Source: a virus. Taken from it: a DNA stretch of 28,723 nt. The stretch covers positions 2,052 through 30,774 of IMG/VR virus record IMGVR_UViG_3300010233_000171; one strand, 5' to 3'. The notes under the pieces are model-generated. The model saw only the letters and a list, made by a program, of their open reading frames with translations. It was not told where the DNA came from and searched no databases. The translations under genes were made by a program, and so were the position numbers. Shown here one piece after another: positions 2,542 to 28,397 of this stretch; position 1 is the stretch's first letter, and the number at the start of each line of letters is the position of its first letter.

Positions 2542-3021
2542 TCAAGCGGGAACGTCAACGTATTCCCGCTTCGGGGTGTATGGAAATACGACAGCCACGC
2601 GGCTTTTTCCGTTTGTGTAGCAGCCACCATTAGGCTCTCGGAAAATTCGACCTTCTATATCGTAGGCTTCGCCGTTTTCCTTAAAGACATGGGAACAACG
2701 GTTATTCTGAAATACTCCGTCTCCGACTTCGTTCCATTCTTCGTCAACGCCGGTTAGCGGGCCTATGGGCTCAAATAATGCCAGCGCCTTGAACACATTT
2801 GCACAATATGGAGCACTTGACCCGGAGTGGCCTTGGAGAGAAAAGACCACTAATAGCTCATTCAGGTTGTCTTGTATCCAGCGATTCGGCCCATCCTTTT
2901 CTTGTGGATCGTATCCTTGTGCTTTCAGTTCTCGTCTAGCATGAGAAAAATAGTTGCTGTGAGAATGCCGAATCAAAATATGCAACAGGTAAAGTGTGAA
3001 TTTCTCAATCAGTCTAATCAT
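2542..3021 (-). CDS. Conserved phage protein of unknown function (159 aa)
   Basis: ATG 3021 is preferred to the TTG at 3024 because AGGAG (complement of 3029-3033) lies seven bases upstream. The N-terminus is helical. The central and C-terminal parts carry LLVVFSLQGHSGSSAP, ALFEPIGPLTG, RCSHVFKENGEAYDI and FREPNGGCYTNGKS, a pattern I recognise as a widespread conserved phage protein without known function. It is the last gene of the minus-strand block and has its own good ribosome binding site after a 52-base gap, so it may be expressed somewhat separately. The upstream sequence CTTAGGAGAAA recurs before two late genes (starts at 22741 and 22966). Confidence 0.85.
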   Translation of the reverse strand: MIRLIEKFTLYLLHILIRHSHSNYFSHARRELKAQGYDPQEKDGPNRWIQDNLNELLVVFSLQGHSGSSAPYCANVFKALALFEPIGPLTGVDEEWNEVGDGVFQNNRCSHVFKENGEAYDIEGRIFREPNGGCYTNGKSRVAVVFPYTPKREYVDVPA

Positions 3022-3073
3022 CAATTTTCTCCTAAGTTTGTTTAAACCCCCTTCGCCCGCGTGTTAAGCCAGA

Positions 3074-6528: not shown

Positions 6529-6743
6529 TGGACGCAGATTATTTGACGAAGCAAATGGACAGCGCGAACAAGATCATGCTCGCCGGTCTGAAATCAGGTC
6601 AGACTATCGGCTGGCGCGAGGGGATGTTGCACGCGGCTGAACTATGCGACAAATACGGCAGATTACTTGTCGCAGACTTGATACGGCAAGAGGTCAAGGA
6701 TGACATTGCCGACGAAATGAAGGCGTTGAGGGGGACGGCGTGA
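6528..6743 (+). CDS. Small helical hypothetical protein (71 aa)
   Basis: Starts in a TAATG overlap and ends in a GTGA overlap with the exonuclease gene, so its translation is coupled to recombination functions. The product is helical and acidic at the C-terminus (VADLIRQEVKDDIADEMKAL). The centre, GQTIGWREGMLHAAELCDK, resembles small phage proteins in which a glycine-containing turn precedes an A-A-x-x-C helix. No specific function can be claimed. AGGAG before ATG 6528 gives a good ribosome binding site. Confidence 0.75.
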   Translation: MDADYLTKQMDSANKIMLAGLKSGQTIGWREGMLHAAELCDKYGRLLVADLIRQEVKDDIADEMKALRGTA

Positions 6744-7459
6744 TTACGATAAACAAGGAAATGATTCAAGGCTCTGAAGAATGGGCTGCTGCAAGATGCG
6801 GGCTGCTAACTGCTAGTGAAATGTCTTTAATTATCACTCCAACGCTCAAAGCAGCATCCAATGACAAGGAACGTTCGCACCTGTATGAACTTCTTGCCCA
6901 ACGAATTACGCGCTATGTTGAGCCGCGCTATGTGAGCGACGACATGCTGCGCGGATTGGATGATGAAATAGAGGCGCTTGATATTTACTCAAAGACCTAT
7001 GCGCCGGTTGAGAAAGTCGGATTTATCACTAACGATAAATGGGGATTTACCATAGGATATTCCCCTGATGCTCTAGTCGGTGACGAGGGCCAAGTTGAAT
7101 GCAAATCACGACGCGCAAAATACCAGATACGCACGATTGTTGATTACGTATCTGCCGGAACAATTGACCCTGACTTTGTGATTCAGGTGCAGACAGGTCT
7201 GCTGGTTAGCGAGAGGAAATGGGTCGATCTGGTTTCATACTGCGGCGGTTTGCCGATGGCTACCGTACGCGTTGGTCCAGACGAGAAAGTGCAGGCAGCT
7301 ATCATTGACGCTGCTACCAATTTTGAAAAACGATTGGATGCAGCAGCTACGAAATTTCAAACTGTGATGGCATCAAGGAATCGCCTTATTCCTACCGAAC
7401 GCAAGATCATTCAGGAGATGTATGATGGACATGACGCCGACTATAGTTCCCAAATCTGA
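6740..7459 (+). CDS. YqaJ-type (lambda exonuclease-like) viral recombinase (239 aa)
   Basis: The GTG start overlaps the preceding TGA. The N-terminal motif QGSEEWAAARCGLLTASEM is the hallmark of YqaJ/lambda-exonuclease proteins. A PD-(D/E)XK active site is visible: WGFTIGYSPDALV with D110, then VECK with E120 and K122; QVQTGLLVSERKW (149-161) forms the usual Q-containing helix. The enzyme would degrade double-stranded DNA ends to single strands for annealing during phage recombination or replication in the cytoplasm. Length is normal for the family. It is followed by the protein that usually accompanies such exonucleases in proteobacterial phages. No recognisable RecT or Erf annealase follows within the window. 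Confidence 0.9.
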   Translation: MITINKEMIQGSEEWAAARCGLLTASEMSLIITPTLKAASNDKERSHLYELLAQRITRYVEPRYVSDDMLRGLDDEIEALDIYSKTYAPVEKVGFITNDKWGFTIGYSPDALVGDEGQVECKSRRAKYQIRTIVDYVSAGTIDPDFVIQVQTGLLVSERKWVDLVSYCGGLPMATVRVGPDEKVQAAIIDAATNFEKRLDAAATKFQTVMASRNRLIPTERKIIQEMYDGHDADYSSQI

Positions 7460-21967: not shown

Positions 21968-22741
21968 TTACACCTTATCGTCGTCTGACTTAGGACCAAT
22001 TTCGCTAACAGTCATTCCTGCGGTAAATAATGCCCTTCTGATGCTGTCATTCGTCGCAAAACCACCGGGCTTGCGGTTGAACTTTTCGACGTATTTAGCT
22101 AGAAGGTCAGGATTCAGAGGATCACGCGCTTTCTTAGTTTTCCTTGCTTTCGGTTCATTGATAGGCTGACCTTGACTAAGCGCCGCAATCTGCTTCTGCA
22201 TGTCGGCAATTATCTGATCGCGCTTGTACAATTCCGTAGCCATGTGCTCGATAGGCGCTGGACCCTTTGCTGCGTCCAGATAAGCCTTCGCCCTATCGCG
22301 CAGCACATGCGGATTAGCTCCAGCCACCATTCCGATTTCCTGAAGCTGCGCGTCTGAGGCACCGGCAAGGTTCTCAACCGTGAGGAACTTCATCGCCTTC
22401 AGTTCCTCTGCCTGAGACTTGGTAAGAATCGGCCAAGCAGTGATCGGAGTGCCGATCAGTTGCTTGTCATCGCCATGCGCGTTGTTGAACGCGGCCCATT
22501 GCAAAGGGAAACGACGCTTATGTTCCTCTCGCATCGGAGTGTCAATGATGTTTAGCGTGTTTCCTGCCGCCATGATTTCAGTGTAAATAACATCACGGAA
22601 GATCGGCCTTCCTTGTTTTGAACTCTCCCAATTGTCCTGCACAGCACGACTATAGAAGCGCACCGTCAGCGCAGCATCAGGATTTCTTGCCCCTACGAAT
22701 TCAGGGTTTGCATCGTCGCTTGCCAGCATTCCATTTGCCAT
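21968..22741 (-). CDS. Conserved phage head-neck region protein (257 aa)
   Basis: AGGAG lies seven bases before ATG 22741, within a 19-bp repeated sequence (22746-22764). The protein matches a conserved phage structural-region family: LTVRFYSRAVQDNWESSKQG, PIFRDVIYTEIMAAGNTLNI, then RRFPLQWAAFNN and TPITAWPILTKSQAEELKAM. Residues 118-156 (LTVENLAGASDAQLQEIGMV) read as a helix-hairpin-helix-like segment. The C-terminal 70 residues are basic (KARKTKKARDPLNPDLLAKY), with a final folded segment. The exact role is not established; the position between capsid and adaptor genes suggests assembly or completion of the head. Confidence 0.78.
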   Translation of the reverse strand: MANGMLASDDANPEFVGARNPDAALTVRFYSRAVQDNWESSKQGRPIFRDVIYTEIMAAGNTLNIIDTPMREEHKRRFPLQWAAFNNAHGDDKQLIGTPITAWPILTKSQAEELKAMKFLTVENLAGASDAQLQEIGMVAGANPHVLRDRAKAYLDAAKGPAPIEHMATELYKRDQIIADMQKQIAALSQGQPINEPKARKTKKARDPLNPDLLAKYVEKFNRKPGGFATNDSIRRALFTAGMTVSEIGPKSDDDKV

Positions 22742-22745
22742 TATG

Positions 22746-22764
22746 TTTCTCCTAAGTAATTAGG
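22746..22764. repeat. 19-bp direct repeat, copy A
   Basis: TTTCTCCTAAGTAATTAGG on the plus strand; read on the minus strand it carries AGGAG, the ribosome binding site of the 22741 gene, and overlaps the stop of the 22760-22966 gene. An identical copy lies at 22970-22988, and the pair encloses the 68-residue gene. Confidence 0.8.
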
Positions 22765-22966
22765 TTATTACCGTTAATTTCACTTTTATGATTTGTTCAC
22801 ATTCACCGTCAGAAAGAGATTTCCAATCTTCCATAATGTCCTTCTTTTTCCTGTGCAATACTGGAGTTCCAAGTGAATCGCATAACAACGTGTCGGTATC
22901 GAATTGGTACACTCCATAAAGTACGATTTTGTTGACATTGCGTTTTATTCTGGTTTTTGCATCCAT
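22760..22966 (-). CDS. Small hypothetical protein between direct repeats (68 aa)
   Basis: ATG 22966 has AGGAG a few bases upstream, inside repeat copy B. The protein is basic at the N-terminus (MDAKTRIKRNVNKIVLYGV) and includes FDTDTLLCDSLGTPVLHRKK, then KDIMEDWKSLSD and a C-terminal strand IIKVKLTVIT. It could be a small alpha/beta protein; no family is recognised. It lies wholly between two identical 19-bp sequences, so loss of the gene by recombination would leave a working ribosome binding site for the next gene. Confidence 0.7.
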   Translation of the reverse strand: MDAKTRIKRNVNKIVLYGVYQFDTDTLLCDSLGTPVLHRKKKDIMEDWKSLSDGECEQIIKVKLTVIT

Positions 22967-22969
22967 TGA

Positions 22970-22988
22970 TTTCTCCTAAGTAATTAGG
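22970..22988. repeat. 19-bp direct repeat, copy B
   Basis: Identical to 22746-22764. On the minus strand it spans the last codons and TAG of the 22976-23161 gene and the AGGAG of the 22966 gene. A looser relative (TTTCTCCTTGATTAATTTAGG, 25772-25792) precedes the 25767 gene. Confidence 0.8.
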
Positions 22989-23161
22989 GTTTGAGTTGAA
23001 ATTTTCTTCAAAAACGATTTCGATACATTGAGTACCACTGGCTTTCTGCGTGGAATTTGTATTGTGAGTTGAACGCAACGCGGTGCAAAATCGGGCGCTC
23101 GTTCGGCAGAAATTGAACCTTCACCGTTCTTGAATTTTAGATGCTCTATCGTGCTTCTCAC
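22976..23161 (-). CDS. Small hypothetical protein (61 aa)
   Basis: The GTG start overlaps the methyltransferase stop (GTGA). The product is basic and beta-rich: CVQLTIQIPRRKPVVLNVSK, then SFLKKISTQTLIT. The N-terminal KNGEGSISAERAPDFAP is polar. It reads as a small beta domain of unknown role. Its last codons lie in repeat copy B. Because it overlaps the methyltransferase gene it may be co-translated with the modification cassette. Confidence 0.65.
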   Translation of the reverse strand: MRSTIEHLKFKNGEGSISAERAPDFAPRCVQLTIQIPRRKPVVLNVSKSFLKKISTQTLIT

Positions 23162-23772
23162 GGTTTGAATCCTTCCATTCTCATGTCTCTCTCCGGGAAA
23201 TGATAACGCGCCTTTTCGTGCGTCACTTTGACGAATCCAGCGTGCAGCATCACTTCACTTAGCATCTGAGGGTTGTATCCCCACTTGTGAACCTGATCCA
23301 TTTTTTTGTATCTAGGATCGCCCCATATCGCATACCAACTGAAAGTCGGAGACATCATCTTTTTGCTTCCGATCTGAGTCAGAATGTAGGAAAACACCTT
23401 ATCCATAGAGGGGCATTCCAGAATCAGCTTTCCTCCGGGTTTCAGCACACGCAGCCATTCCTTCAACGTATCGTCCACCTCCCAAAACGGAATATGCTCG
23501 ATGAGGTGGATTGCGGCGATAACGTCGGCATGATTGTCAGGAAAACTTAAGTGGCAGGCGGTGGAGATAACGTCGGCGCGTGGATTTGCTGAATCAACAT
23601 TGATCCATCCGTGCCACCGAATTTCACCTGACCCGACATTGATGAGGACTGAGCCTTCTGGATAGTAGCCTTCCACGCAGACGCCTGTATTGACGGCGCA
23701 TACCATTGTCGGATATACGCTTGGGCCTGTGTTGTCCGGTGATTCGCTTCTTGCTGGTTCGCTATTGCCCAC
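23158..23772 (-). CDS. Class I SAM-dependent methyltransferase (204 aa)
   Basis: A GTG start at 23772 is preceded by GAGGGGGT and is preferred to ATG 23706, which has no ribosome binding site. Residues 43-50 (LINVGSGE) are the SAM-binding loop, D60 follows GWINVD, HLIEHI (89-94) is the post-II motif, and LRVLKPGGKLILECP (107-121) is the typical Methyltransf_11 strand and turn. The C-terminal part (from PRYKKMDQVHKWGYNPQMLS) may form the acceptor site. The acceptor could be sugar or protein; it cannot be read from sequence. The first 75 codons overlap the glycosyltransferase gene in another frame by 226 bases. Confidence 0.85.
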   Translation of the reverse strand: MGNSEPARSESPDNTGPSVYPTMVCAVNTGVCVEGYYPEGSVLINVGSGEIRWHGWINVDSANPRADVISTACHLSFPDNHADVIAAIHLIEHIPFWEVDDTLKEWLRVLKPGGKLILECPSMDKVFSYILTQIGSKKMMSPTFSWYAIWGDPRYKKMDQVHKWGYNPQMLSEVMLHAGFVKVTHEKARYHFPERDMRMEGFKP

Positions 23773-24446
23773 TCTACCCCCTCAACTAAGTTGCCTTTCC
23801 AGATTCCGGGAAATTCTTCTATTGATACGTGCGGTTCTGCCACCACAAAGCAGCCTCGCCTGATCGCTTCCACCGCCCGGTTGCACGACTTGTAAGGCGC
23901 AGTTTCAGGCAGCACCACAATGTCTGATATGCGCGTCGCTTCCAGAATGTTCTCTCTGGAATATTGAATGCAATTCTGAATGTTGGATACGATCCTGATT
24001 GGATGTTTCTCAATCTCGCGTATCACGCGCCCAAGAGTTTGTATGTTGGAACCGTGTCCGAACCATAGCAGATTGTCTCCGTTGCAGTGTGGTTCGAGTT
24101 CGTCAAACTCGTAGGGGTCCGGTACAACGATAGCGTCAACTCCGAAATCGGAGTGTAAGTAATCCCGAAACCACTTGGTAGGACACGTGACGCAGTGAGC
24201 AATTGACAATAGGTCACGATATTCAGGTCTGCCAAAGTGCGGATCGCAGAAATCGACAACAACGGTTCTGTTTTCATCTAGTGCCTTTCTAGCAAAGCTC
24301 ACGTCATGCGGCGCAGGCTTTGCGAAGATAAGAATATCGGCGTCTGGATTGTTAATCTCAACGCCCATTTCCTTAGCTGGAATCGCGCAGCGATAGCGAT
24401 ACGACGCCATCGTTGGGTTGCCGGAATGCAGGAAGGAAATGCTCAT
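23547..24446 (-). CDS. GT-B-like glycosyltransferase (299 aa)
   Basis: The C-terminal half has the layout of a group 1 glycosyltransferase: LLWFGHGSNIQTLGRVIREI (126-145), then ISDIVVLPETAPYKSCNRAV (173-192) and EAIRRGCFVVAEPHVSIEEF (193-212), i.e. the sugar-nucleotide site with a conserved acidic/asparagine cluster and the glycine turn. The N-terminal half (DADILIFAKPAPHDVSFARK) is a Rossmann-like domain. The last 35 or so residues look unconstrained and overlap the methyltransferase start. It would transfer a sugar to a virion or envelope acceptor. ATGA overlap couples it to the DUF115 gene. Confidence 0.82.
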   Translation of the reverse strand: MSISFLHSGNPTMASYRYRCAIPAKEMGVEINNPDADILIFAKPAPHDVSFARKALDENRTVVVDFCDPHFGRPEYRDLLSIAHCVTCPTKWFRDYLHSDFGVDAIVVPDPYEFDELEPHCNGDNLLWFGHGSNIQTLGRVIREIEKHPIRIVSNIQNCIQYSRENILEATRISDIVVLPETAPYKSCNRAVEAIRRGCFVVAEPHVSIEEFPGIWKGNLVEGVEWAIANQQEANHRTTQAQAYIRQWYAPSIQASAWKATIQKAQSSSMSGQVKFGGTDGSMLIQQIHAPTLSPPPAT

Positions 24447-25270
24447 GCCTTGTAACCCCTTTTCCTGCGCGCCTCGATGATCGCAGCAATCAATCCATCC
24501 CCCTTCGCCTCAACGTGCATATCCATGCCGCGGTATAACTCCTGAAACTCGGTTGCCTGCTGCGCCCATGCTCCATTGCACCAGAATCGCTTGCCATCAA
24601 CGATAATGTCGCCCTTCCATGCGTCACCAACCTTTTCCCCTGTAAACCGCTTGGTATCCCTATCAGGCGCAAGGCAGGAATCAAAGCCGTATAGGATCAG
24701 GTTGCGGAATCCCATTAGGTAGCAAAGATTCAAAGCGCGAAGTCCTGAAGTCGTGCCACCGCCAATCCCCATCTTTCCCTTCCAGAGTTCGCATTCAGGA
24801 TCAAGGTTCAGGTCATCCCAACCCAGCGGCTTTCCTGTCTCCTTAACACCTTTTCCGCCAACGCAGGCGTGCCAGACGACGATCTTTTTGCCTTGAAGCC
24901 GATCAAACAGCGTCGTATTGCAACGTGAAGCAAGAAAATAAACCGTGCGATCCGATACATATTTCAATTCCCGTTCGCGTGGTTCGCAGGATACGAATAG
25001 ATCAGGCTCCAGCCCGTTCTCTATCAGATAATCATGCGTTCCCTTGACAGCGCAAATCGGGCGTCCTTCCACACGTTCCTGTTTCAGTTCGTCCAGATGT
25101 TCGGGCAGGGAGTGCCCGCTCCCGGTAATCACCATGTTGCCATCGTGAAAACAGTGAGCGGGCTGAAACTCCGTGCATCCTCGCGCCAAGTTCGTGCGGA
25201 TGTTGTCCGCCAGCGATTCTTCCGTACCCGCCTTGACGATCTTGAGCGAGGAATGGTTAAGCTCGTGCAT
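24443..25270 (-). CDS. DUF115 / MptE-like protein (275 aa)
   Basis: MVITGSGHSLPEHLDELKQE (46-65) and ICAVKGTHDYLIENGLEPDL (72-91), then FVSCEPR, are the DUF115 (6-hydroxymethylpterin pyrophosphokinase MptE-like) pattern. A second block, GIGGGTTSGLRALNLCYLMG then NLILYGFDSCL, fits the rest of the domain. In bacteria DUF115 proteins act in surface glycan or flagellin modification (Maf-type). ATG 25270 overlaps the decoration protein stop (TAATG), and the next gene is a glycosyltransferase. A joint role in adding or handling a sugar is inferred from this order. Confidence 0.85.
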   Translation of the reverse strand: MHELNHSSLKIVKAGTEESLADNIRTNLARGCTEFQPAHCFHDGNMVITGSGHSLPEHLDELKQERVEGRPICAVKGTHDYLIENGLEPDLFVSCEPRERELKYVSDRTVYFLASRCNTTLFDRLQGKKIVVWHACVGGKGVKETGKPLGWDDLNLDPECELWKGKMGIGGGTTSGLRALNLCYLMGFRNLILYGFDSCLAPDRDTKRFTGEKVGDAWKGDIIVDGKRFWCNGAWAQQATEFQELYRGMDMHVEAKGDGLIAAIIEARRKRGYKA

Positions 25271-25767
25271 TAGTGCTGCATCCCGTAGCCGCCAATGAAT
25301 ACGCAGGGAATTGCGACGAGTGTTCCGGCAGTTGCGGTGCTGATTGTCGTCTGCAAGAAACAGCCAGCAAGATAACCAGCCGTAATCGTGGCGTCGTCCA
25401 GCACGCCAGCGGTTGAGGTCGTGAACAGAGGCACACTCTGCGCGCAGCTAGTGGCAAGTTCAACCATCGGTGAACCACCTGTTTGCACCCATCCGTAATT
25501 GCTGGTCGCAATCGAGACTTGTGCGAACCCTACGCGAACGCCTGCACCACCTGGAGCAGCAGCGGCATTGGTCGTCGTCAGAAGCATTGCAATGCCGTTC
25601 GCCCCGATCAGGCAAGCTCCGAATGTGGAAAGCGCCGAAGTGCTCGCCTTCACATACATCGCCTGCCCACCATCCGACAGATTAACCAGAGTGCCCAACG
25701 GGAACACAGCGGTAGTGTCAGTGCGCGTCAGATTAACGCCAATCAAACTAGAAACAACTGTTGCCAT
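25270..25767 (-). CDS. Head decoration-like virion protein (165 aa)
   Basis: Located directly after the major capsid gene. The sequence is Ala/Thr/Gly-rich beta structure: TAVFPLGTLVNLSDGGQAMY, then VRVGFAQVSIATSNYGWVQT and AGTLVAIPCVFIGGYG. Proteins with this composition beside the capsid gene are usually head decoration or stabilisation proteins. The AGGAG is within TTTCTCCTTGATTAA (read on the plus strand). No direct motif for trimeric decoration folds can be confirmed. Its stop overlaps the DUF115 start. Confidence 0.75.
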   Translation of the reverse strand: MATVVSSLIGVNLTRTDTTAVFPLGTLVNLSDGGQAMYVKASTSALSTFGACLIGANGIAMLLTTTNAAAAPGGAGVRVGFAQVSIATSNYGWVQTGGSPMVELATSCAQSVPLFTTSTAGVLDDATITAGYLAGCFLQTTISTATAGTLVAIPCVFIGGYGMQH

Positions 25768-25795: not shown

Positions 25796-26824
25796 TCACG
25801 CCTTAAGCACACCGCTGAACTGCGGGCCGCTAGAAGTGATGTTACCGGCCCAACCGATGAGTTTCACAATCGCGTCTTGATTGACGGATTGCCTCTCGCC
25901 ACCGATGGGAACAAAGTTGCGATCACGATGCGGACGGAAAAAGAAGTAATCCGTATTTATCGCCCACATATGCGCGGAAGTGGCACCGGAAGTCAGTTGC
26001 GTTGCACTTACCGCGCCGCTGATACCGCCTGCCATCACAACGCTGGATGCCATCCCGCCGCCGTAGAACTTGAGCGTTGGGAATCCAGCACCGGCAGTCG
26101 AATCGCCTTCGCTCGACACACGCTGAATCGCCTGCATCGAATTGACGTATAGCCCGTAGTAAGTCGCATCCGCCACCCACAGATCAGGCATGTCATTGCC
26201 GCGCACGCATTTCAACGCGAGCGCAGTCATGTAAGCCTGAATGTTGGCAGCAGAAACAGCCGCTCCGCCATCCGTCACGCCACGGAACAGTTGCGAACCC
26301 CAAAACGTCCATGAGGCACGCGGAATCCCGCCATACGTTCCAGTCGTCGGATCGTCAGGAATGGCAGCGGCAAGGCCAGTCAGGTTCTTTCCGCCGTTGC
26401 CGGTTCCATCCTGATATGCGTCGTAGTCGATGCGGTTCATCAACTGCGCTTCGGTCACTTTCACGCGGCCTTCCATTAGGTCGATTATCGCTTCCTTGCC
26501 GCTGTTTTGAAGCATTTCCAGGCCCGACATGGTGATAGCACCGGCATACTGCGTGATCGGAAAGCTCGCGGCGCTGAGCGGGCTGTTGACGCCAACGTTC
26601 AGCGGCTCATATCCGCTGTAGCTGTTGACGTTGATCGAGGAAGGATCGTTGTACATGATTTCCTCGATGATGACATTACCGCCACCGAAGGGCCGTACGT
26701 TACCCTTGGCCTTCAGCTTGCGGATTAGTGCGTTGTTGTTTTCTGTATTATCAGCCAATTTGCCAGAACGATTTTGAATCGTAGTGGCAATTATGTCTGT
26801 ATACGAACTGTTCGGAAAAGCCAT
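25796..26824 (-). CDS. Major capsid protein, HK97-type candidate (342 aa)
   Basis: AGGAG lies before ATG 26824. The N-terminal part (DIIATTIQNRSGKLADN, then NALIRKLKAKGNVRPFGGGN and VIIEEIMYND) and the centre (PLSAASFPITQYAGAITMSG, LEMLQNSGKEAIIDLMEGRV and EAQLMNRIDYDAYQDG) match a recognised phage major capsid family. The C-terminus (MWAINTDYFFFRPHRDRNF, then VKLIGWAGNITSSGPQFSG) is also typical. About 400 copies per head are expected for this size of capsid, but the copy number is not readable. It follows the scaffold gene, as in most tailed phages. No cleaved N-terminal delta domain is obvious, which fits a separate scaffold. Confidence 0.88.
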   Translation of the reverse strand: MAFPNSSYTDIIATTIQNRSGKLADNTENNNALIRKLKAKGNVRPFGGGNVIIEEIMYNDPSSINVNSYSGYEPLNVGVNSPLSAASFPITQYAGAITMSGLEMLQNSGKEAIIDLMEGRVKVTEAQLMNRIDYDAYQDGTGNGGKNLTGLAAAIPDDPTTGTYGGIPRASWTFWGSQLFRGVTDGGAAVSAANIQAYMTALALKCVRGNDMPDLWVADATYYGLYVNSMQAIQRVSSEGDSTAGAGFPTLKFYGGGMASSVVMAGGISGAVSATQLTSGATSAHMWAINTDYFFFRPHRDRNFVPIGGERQSVNQDAIVKLIGWAGNITSSGPQFSGVLKA

Positions 26825-26849: not shown

Positions 26850-27848
26850 TTAAACCCTGCTCTCGACATCTGCGAATGCTGATGCAATGTCGTCGCGCAG
26901 ACTCTTGTTGTCCTTCGCTGTCACCACCGGGCCGCTAGGAGTAGCTGATTTGGTGGAAACTGCGTTGGAACGGGCGCGTGTGACTTGCGCTTTCGCCTGT
27001 CCTGCCGCTTCTGCCGCTTTGTGTCCTGCCTGTTGTTTTTGCATAGCATCCCAAATATCGGTGTGGCGTGGATGGCGAATCGCTGCTTCATAAGCGCCTG
27101 CATAGTCTTGGGCTAATCCTGATTGAAGGAGTCCAACCATTGTGTCCTTGACTGCTTCGTAGTGCGGGTACTTATCTTCGACTTCCGAGAGGAATTTGTT
27201 GAATTCCCCTTTGATTTCACGTTCTGTCAGCTTTTCCTCAAGTACACGGTTGATGTCAACCGGAGGCTGCTGAGGCTGCTGAAAAGGAATCTGCCCTGAG
27301 AGCACTTGGAAAAGCGCCTGCGGGTTGATCTTGTAATCGCTCAATAACTGAGCCGCTTTCATTACCTTTTGCTGATCTGTTCCAAGCGATAAAATCTCGT
27401 GTGCGGTGCCCATGCCCTGAAGCCATTGAGCGACAGGAACATTGAACCGTTGCAGGTTCGGCAGGAACGGGGCTATGGCGTTATTCAGTTCCCTCGCGTT
27501 TTCCGCTTCGGACTTGTAAGCAGATACGCCACTGGCGTATTCGCGTTCCCGCTGGTGGATGTATTCTGCAAGTTTTGGATCAAGGGTTTCCCATTGCGGA
27601 TCAAACTCTTTCTTCCAGCTTGAGGGGCGAGTTGGGCGGGGCGGCGCTGGAGTCGCGCTCGGAGAAACAAGGTTCGTCGGTTCATCTTTTTTGGCGAATT
27701 TCCCTGCGTCATCGCGCACCCTCTCTGCTGGCTTGGCTTCCGCTGGTTTCTTAGCAGGAACTTCCGGCGCTGTTTGCGCCTGTTCAATCTGCTCAAAACT
27801 CGCTGCTACATCTTCGCGGAGAGTAGTCTCCTGTTTCTCATCAGCCAC
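26850..27848 (-). CDS. Scaffolding protein candidate (332 aa)
   Basis: Charged and helical throughout, with an Ala/Pro/Lys-rich N-terminus (EVPAKKPAEAKPAERVRDDA), a conserved-looking middle (WKKEFDPQWETLDPKLAEYI, then HQREREYASGVSAYKSEAEN), and a long helical C-terminal half ending in a basic Lys/Arg-Ser region. Position directly before the major capsid gene is diagnostic. The N-terminus (LREDVAASFEQIE, 10-22) and C-terminus (LRDDIASAFADVE, 317-329) carry the same motif, a symmetry that could mean two capsid- or self-binding ends. ATG 27848 has only a weak upstream signal. Confidence 0.82.
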   Translation of the reverse strand: MADEKQETTLREDVAASFEQIEQAQTAPEVPAKKPAEAKPAERVRDDAGKFAKKDEPTNLVSPSATPAPPRPTRPSSWKKEFDPQWETLDPKLAEYIHQREREYASGVSAYKSEAENARELNNAIAPFLPNLQRFNVPVAQWLQGMGTAHEILSLGTDQQKVMKAAQLLSDYKINPQALFQVLSGQIPFQQPQQPPVDINRVLEEKLTEREIKGEFNKFLSEVEDKYPHYEAVKDTMVGLLQSGLAQDYAGAYEAAIRHPRHTDIWDAMQKQQAGHKAAEAAGQAKAQVTRARSNAVSTKSATPSGPVVTAKDNKSLRDDIASAFADVESRV

Positions 27849-28031: not shown

Positions 28032-28397
28032 TTACGCAGACAAAATCCCGATCCACTTCGTTGTCGTGACTTTCTTGAGCAGCATGGAAGTTGCGGTAGC
28101 CAAGCTCACGCCTCCGTTCGTTGCCTGCTCATTGATCTTCGATCCGCTGTCAGGGTAGATTGTCAGCGCGTTAGCCCCACCGTTGTAGAGCCATACGTCA
28201 TCTGAAATTTCACCTGAAGGCAGGATTGCCCCAGTGCTTCCAGCTACGGTGCCAAATACGACAACCCCTGCGTTGATTGCCAAAGCCGTTGCCTGATTCG
28301 TTCCTGTCGCAGTCAGTCCTGATGCAACATCGCCGTTGATGGCTTTAGCGTTACCAGCCGAAAGTCCACCGCCCATGATCTTCTTTGCTAATGGCAT
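28032..28397 (-). CDS. Virion protein, probable head decoration-type (121 aa)
   Basis: Gly/Ala/Thr-rich beta protein: SAGNAKAINGDVASGLTATG, then NAGVVVFGTVAGSTGAILPS and GEISDDVWLYNGGANALTIY. The segment P-x-S-G-S-K-I-N-x-Q-A-T-N-G-G-V-S-L-A-T-A-T is a common ending in phage capsid-surface and fibre-tip domains. Its position before the scaffold gene and after the 97-residue conserved protein suggests a head-surface role. It is one of two such proteins; the other lies downstream of the capsid gene. The exact role is unknown. Confidence 0.72.
   Translation of the reverse strand: MPLAKKIMGGGLSAGNAKAINGDVASGLTATGTNQATALAINAGVVVFGTVAGSTGAILPSGEISDDVWLYNGGANALTIYPDSGSKINEQATNGGVSLATATSMLLKKVTTTKWIGILSA

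Follow-up and report, generated by a model that had tools for sequence, protein, structure and literature searches.

Gene organization of the head block

The sequence analysed, a window of 28,723 nt, represents most of a 30.8-kb record from an uncultured virus. Its right part is a block of head genes on the minus strand, within which the genes for a DUF115 protein, a glycosyltransferase (GT) and a methyltransferase (MT) form a trio. Along the direction of transcription the genes of this block are as follows, with the overlap between the last two genes of the trio given at the end.

28032-28397, minus strand: open reading frame of the virion block, first in the block along transcription
26850-27848, minus strand: scaffold-like protein, named 'scaffold' from its position
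25796-26824, minus strand: major head protein (PHROG 9953, 1e-89); border of the proposed exchanged module on the decoration-gene side
25270-25767, minus strand: decoration-type virion protein, long form (165 aa; PHROG 29386); candidate acceptor
24443-25270, minus strand: DUF115 protein (275 aa); open reading frame intact
23547-24446, minus strand: GT (299 aa); open reading frame intact
23158-23772, minus strand: MT (204 aa; GTG start); open reading frame intact
21968-22741, minus strand: conserved neck-region protein (PHROG 20268), named 'neck' from its position; border of the slot on the MT side
23547-23772, minus strand: coding overlap of the GT 3' end with the MT 5' end (226 nt, same strand)

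The initial annotation described three consecutive, overlapping genes located between a decoration-like gene and neck genes, and we found this arrangement to be correct: all three reading frames are open on the minus strand, with overlaps of 1, 4 and 226 nt, and they are flanked by the PHROG 29386 gene upstream and the PHROG 20268 gene on the other side. Specifically, the decoration stop codon and the DUF115 start codon share 1 nt (TAATG), the DUF115/GT junction is a 4-nt overlap (ATGA), and the GTG of MT is immediately preceded by the purine-rich GAGGGGGT. The GT/MT overlap measures 124-280 nt in most relatives possessing the trio, but only 4-28 nt in L094-L096, suggesting that the N-terminus of MT has apparently been extended over the 3' end of GT. 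The neck-region protein follows the slot in 71 of 80 relatives, and two small open reading frames between MT and the neck gene (61 and 68 aa; window 22760-23161, minus strand) lack counterparts among the 80 loci. Expression of the trio in a late operon, as had been proposed, would be consistent with the common strand and the overlapping genes, from which we deduce it, whereas promoter and terminator scans gave signals no better than those of shuffled sequence.

Predicted activities of the three proteins

The DUF115 protein matched PF01973 with 61 bits (cut-off, 34.6) and has conserved the GSG-S nucleotide loop and the YGxDS motif. A profile built from 22 DUF115 relatives matched the Maf protein of Magnetospirillum (5mu5, 3e-14) as well as archaeal MptE (3e-6). 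When the AF2 model (pLDDT 89.4) was compared with solved folds using VIA, Maf was the closest (Z 21.7 over 219 residues, rmsd 2.8), and the GT29/GT42 sialyltransferases gave Z values of about 9-10. Maf is described as a three-domain Ser/Thr O-glycosyltransferase of flagellin, the central pfam01973 domain of which resembles the sialyltransferase Cst-II (PMC11339370). The window protein has the DUF115/PF01973 catalytic-domain fold of this family but lacks the three-domain architecture; it is a single 275-aa domain, aligning to residues 244-503 only of 5mu5, and is therefore a Maf-like domain rather than a Maf protein. Judged by its model, it may be regarded as a candidate Maf-type glycosyltransferase.

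GT had no match above cut-off in Pfam, PHROG or NCBIfam, and the Pfam GT1 families were reached by only 3 of 16 GT members (E 0.0017). Its AF2 model (pLDDT 89), however, has a GT-B/GT4 fold with the two Rossmann domains, matching SenB/BshA with a Foldseek E of 4e-9 and many GT4 enzymes at VIA Z 20-24 (best, 23.8) over at least about 250 residues. The members share the signature MASYRYR... WFGH..N ... KS.NR..EA, and on the modelled fold we assign them to a so far unnamed GT4-like subfamily of the GT-B glycosyltransferases. The usual catalytic motif of GT4 enzymes is E-x7-E, accompanied by a phosphate-binding Arg/Lys. At the position of the first Glu the window protein has Y185; the second, E193, is kept in 13 of 16 relatives, and N189, R190, W128, G130 and N134 are invariant across the 16, suggesting that GT may be active but belongs to an unusual subfamily.

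MT matched Methyltransf_11 at 2e-10, and both glycines of its GSG motif I are invariant in the window protein and four relatives; by sequence it is assigned to the class I SAM-dependent methyltransferases of the Methyltransf_11 type. The families initially given for the three proteins were thus recovered (PF01973, a GT-B/GT4 model and Methyltransf_11), and structure prediction agreed for the DUF115 protein and GT. The DUF115 motifs and motif I of MT are retained; the first GT4 Glu is missing from GT.

Distribution of the cassette and co-divergence with the decoration protein

Relatives were reached through the capsid protein, for which 80 viral contigs encoding a related protein were fetched, and then through the GT alignment. 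A DUF115 gene occupies the same slot in 23 of the 80 contigs, and the same trio was found in four (tblastn). The GT alignment led to 18 other IMG/VR contigs, in every one of which MT directly follows GT in the same slot, a pairing that is more than chance; the order decoration-DUF115-GT-MT was present in all 14 contigs reaching far enough upstream. DUF115 was absent throughout 42 cassette-free records, several of which are short fragments. Searches of cultured phages with each protein of the trio revealed no match for DUF115 or GT and one weak match for MT, and searches of cultured phages with three other DUF115 types and the decoration protein revealed none carrying the cassette.

We found that the parts of the cassette are also joined in various ways. 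DUF115 is fused to GT in L089, L091 and L099, and to MT in about a dozen members of the L012-L073 group, while in L029 a single 768-aa protein combines GT8-like, DUF115 and MT parts. In L008 (8185-9654), a GT8-like domain matching phage P1 PmgQ and a phage XacN1 protein is fused to DUF115. A GT8-type gene has been added in many relatives with the trio, a zinc-binding NDP-sugar C-methyltransferase gene in L094 and L096, and in three near-identical contigs genes for a GT8 enzyme and a sugar C-methyltransferase both lie between DUF115 and GT. Since fusions link all three activities and relatives add GT8 or C-methyltransferase genes, the slot may represent a variable glycosylation island. A GT-MT fusion of 507 aa adjoining another methyltransferase and a GT8-like gene was found in a Uliginosibacterium gangwonense MAG contig (L105, 7986-9509), a bacterial locus from which the cassette could have come.

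The product of 25270-25767 matched PHROG 29386 ('virion structural protein') at 2.7e-6 and is homologous to Mx8p49, also annotated 'virion structural protein' (profile match, 9.9e-12). It is a small virion protein whose gene comes immediately after that of the major capsid protein, as is typical of decoration proteins, and a search for a solved structural relative found none; from these sequence features it is probably a capsid decoration protein. Pairwise divergences among 28 cassette-bearing phages showed that it varies together with DUF115 (r 0.91; partial r 0.91 controlling for the capsid protein; p<=0.001), the correlation with the adjacent capsid protein being only 0.25. The partial r was 0.79 within phages having the trio and 0.72 within those having DUF115-MT. 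Divergence of the capsid protein correlated with that of the scaffold (0.83) and neck (0.67) proteins, and all other virion proteins tested against DUF115, including the 28032-28397 product, gave 0.15-0.44. For pairs with capsid proteins at least 76% identical, r was 0.90 for decoration-DUF115 versus 0.18 for decoration-neck; for example, L002 and L008 share 86% identity in the capsid protein but 23% in the decoration protein and 27% in DUF115. The co-divergence of the decoration protein and DUF115 is what one would expect if an enzyme and its cognate substrate were exchanged together. Within the phages having the trio, GT sequences did not vary with DUF115 (partial r -0.11).

The long decoration form (about 158-196 aa) was present in all 33 cassette-bearing loci scored, whereas the short form, about 97 aa in most cases, was found in 41 loci, all cassette-free; eight long forms were also cassette-free. 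On the capsid tree this association was not significant, with few independent changes, and we therefore do not take it as statistical proof. Ser/Thr content, 22% in the window protein, was 18-26% in long forms with the cassette versus 12-17% in those without, but the short cassette-free forms are also rich (about 19-28%), so that Ser/Thr enrichment was rejected as proof of an acceptor. In L007 (5742-7342), three decoration paralogues, all rich in Ser/Thr, lie in tandem directly before DUF115.

Proposed glycosylation of the decoration protein

We propose, with a probability of roughly two in three, that the three genes form a phage cassette for protein glycosylation, acting on the decoration protein encoded directly upstream, and that decoration gene and cassette are exchanged together. 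The initial annotation had suggested that a methylated sugar is made or attached late in infection, on the capsid or decoration protein or on the host surface. The idea of a methylated sugar on the virion is supported, and the comparative data favour the 25270-25767 product specifically as the acceptor (r 0.91 with DUF115, versus 0.44 or less for other virion proteins). We infer the following pathway. In the cytoplasm, the DUF115 protein, as an enzyme of the Maf/sialyltransferase type, would take a sugar from the nucleotide-sugar pool of the host and attach it to Ser/Thr of freshly synthesized decoration protein; judging from Maf, this first transfer is probably its role. The donor could perhaps be a CMP-nonulosonic acid, a guess from the family, and would probably be host-derived, because 19 records, fragments among them, yielded no NeuB, CMP-transferase, nonulosonate (NulO) or dTDP-sugar isomerase gene. 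The GT4-type enzyme would then add a further sugar and MT would O-methylate the glycan, after which the glycan-coated decoration subunits would dress the capsid, where the coat may serve in shielding, adhesion or stability. Swapping of the decoration gene and cassette as one unit between related phages would result in variable surface glycans on the virion.

It is improbable, in our estimate, that another virion protein is glycosylated (the major capsid protein, the 28032-28397 product or tail parts) and that the tie to the decoration protein reflects physical linkage within the exchange unit. Adjacent genes travel together, so that linkage alone could produce co-divergence, and the decoration and DUF115 genes, overlapping by one base, would be expected to move together. 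The capsid gene, however, is nearly as tightly linked to the decoration gene, with a gap of 28 nt, yet shows no such co-divergence, and the correlations of the other virion proteins with DUF115 are low. Similarly unlikely is an action on the host surface, in which the cassette would alter structures such as LPS or capsule at a late stage of infection and keep released or competing phage from adsorbing. Conversion of surface glycans is a known strategy of phages, and relatives of GT and MT occur in glycan-type gene neighbourhoods of bacteria (L103 and L105), but no strongly hydrophobic, membrane-like segment was found in DUF115, GT or MT, no flippase or polyprenol enzyme was seen in the cassette, all viral relatives seen have the cassette among their virion genes, and its co-divergence is far stronger with the decoration protein than with other genes. 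That the DUF115 protein is instead an MptE-like pterin diphosphokinase of small-molecule metabolism, unrelated to GT and MT, is very improbable: the Pfam name and the second-best fold (MptE/HPPK, VIA Z 15.0) point that way, but Maf is clearly nearer, the metal-binding LDGD acidic stretch of MptE aligns to residues that are variable here (C-E-P-R in the window, by profile alignment to 8sd5), and DUF115 is fused to GT and to MT in relatives.

Glycosylation of the decoration protein may have its closest parallel in the Maf flagellin O-glycosyltransferases (PF01973; Magnetospirillum 5mu5, Clostridium), in which the central DUF115 domain has the same fold and the gene adjoins that of a repetitive, self-assembling surface protein, its proposed target in the cytoplasm. 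The phage protein differs in being viral, in lacking the N- and C-terminal domains, in having a capsid decoration protein as its proposed target and in having no NulO pathway nearby. At somewhat less than even odds, the system would be a viral counterpart of flagellin glycosylation, in which a Maf/sialyltransferase-type enzyme O-glycosylates the decoration protein, the glycan is built up by additional transferases and methyltransferases, and swapping of the decoration protein together with its enzymes as a cognate cassette gives serotype-like surface variation.

Virion glycosylation is already known in mycobacteriophages. In cluster O, glycosyltransferases and an O-methyltransferase are reported to modify capsid and tail-tube proteins, as summarized in PMC11600133, citing Freeman et al. 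2023. Such systems, in cluster O and others, resemble our proposal in combining phage glycosyltransferases and a methyltransferase acting on capsid or tail proteins, but the account of them in PMC11600133 mentions no DUF115/Maf component, whereas the window trio has one. The initial statement that this trio had no described function held for the open literature searched, although cluster O, in that account, provides a described case of virion glycosylation by phage glycosyltransferases and a methyltransferase. In the same literature, no paper was found that describes a virion as the target of a DUF115/Maf-type enzyme or the modular exchange of a decoration protein together with glycosylation genes, and nothing relevant on DUF115 or MptE-like proteins in phage came up. 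The jumbo phage XacN1 has glycosyltransferases, and glycoproteins have been detected in it (PMC5852040). PmgQ of P1, matching the N-terminal domain of L008 and annotated as 'putative morphogenetic function' or glycosyltransferase, is GT8-like, lies outside the window trio and is of another glycosyltransferase type than the GT4-like enzyme. The Myxococcus phages Mx8 and Mx9 have a head block in the same capsid-decoration-neck-tail-'amidase' order, but they have no cassette, and their long decoration protein is poor in Ser/Thr (12-15%).

Worked examples of phage virion glycosylation are few, and comparative genomics here names the enzymes and a likely acceptor in a widespread uncultured lineage. 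If true, the proposal describes a compact protein-glycosylation system of two to four genes and suggests that capsid sugar coats vary much like bacterial flagella. The lineage also offers natural contrasts, including relatives that lack the cassette and have short decoration proteins, cassettes that have been swapped and one phage with three decoration copies.

Elsewhere in the window, the plus-strand block contains a YqaJ-like recombinase gene (6740-7459, plus strand), and the open reading frame at 2542-3024 (minus strand) matched Pfam Tad3, an inhibitor of type I Thoeris defence, with an E of 1.9e-35, suggesting that it is likely an anti-defence gene.
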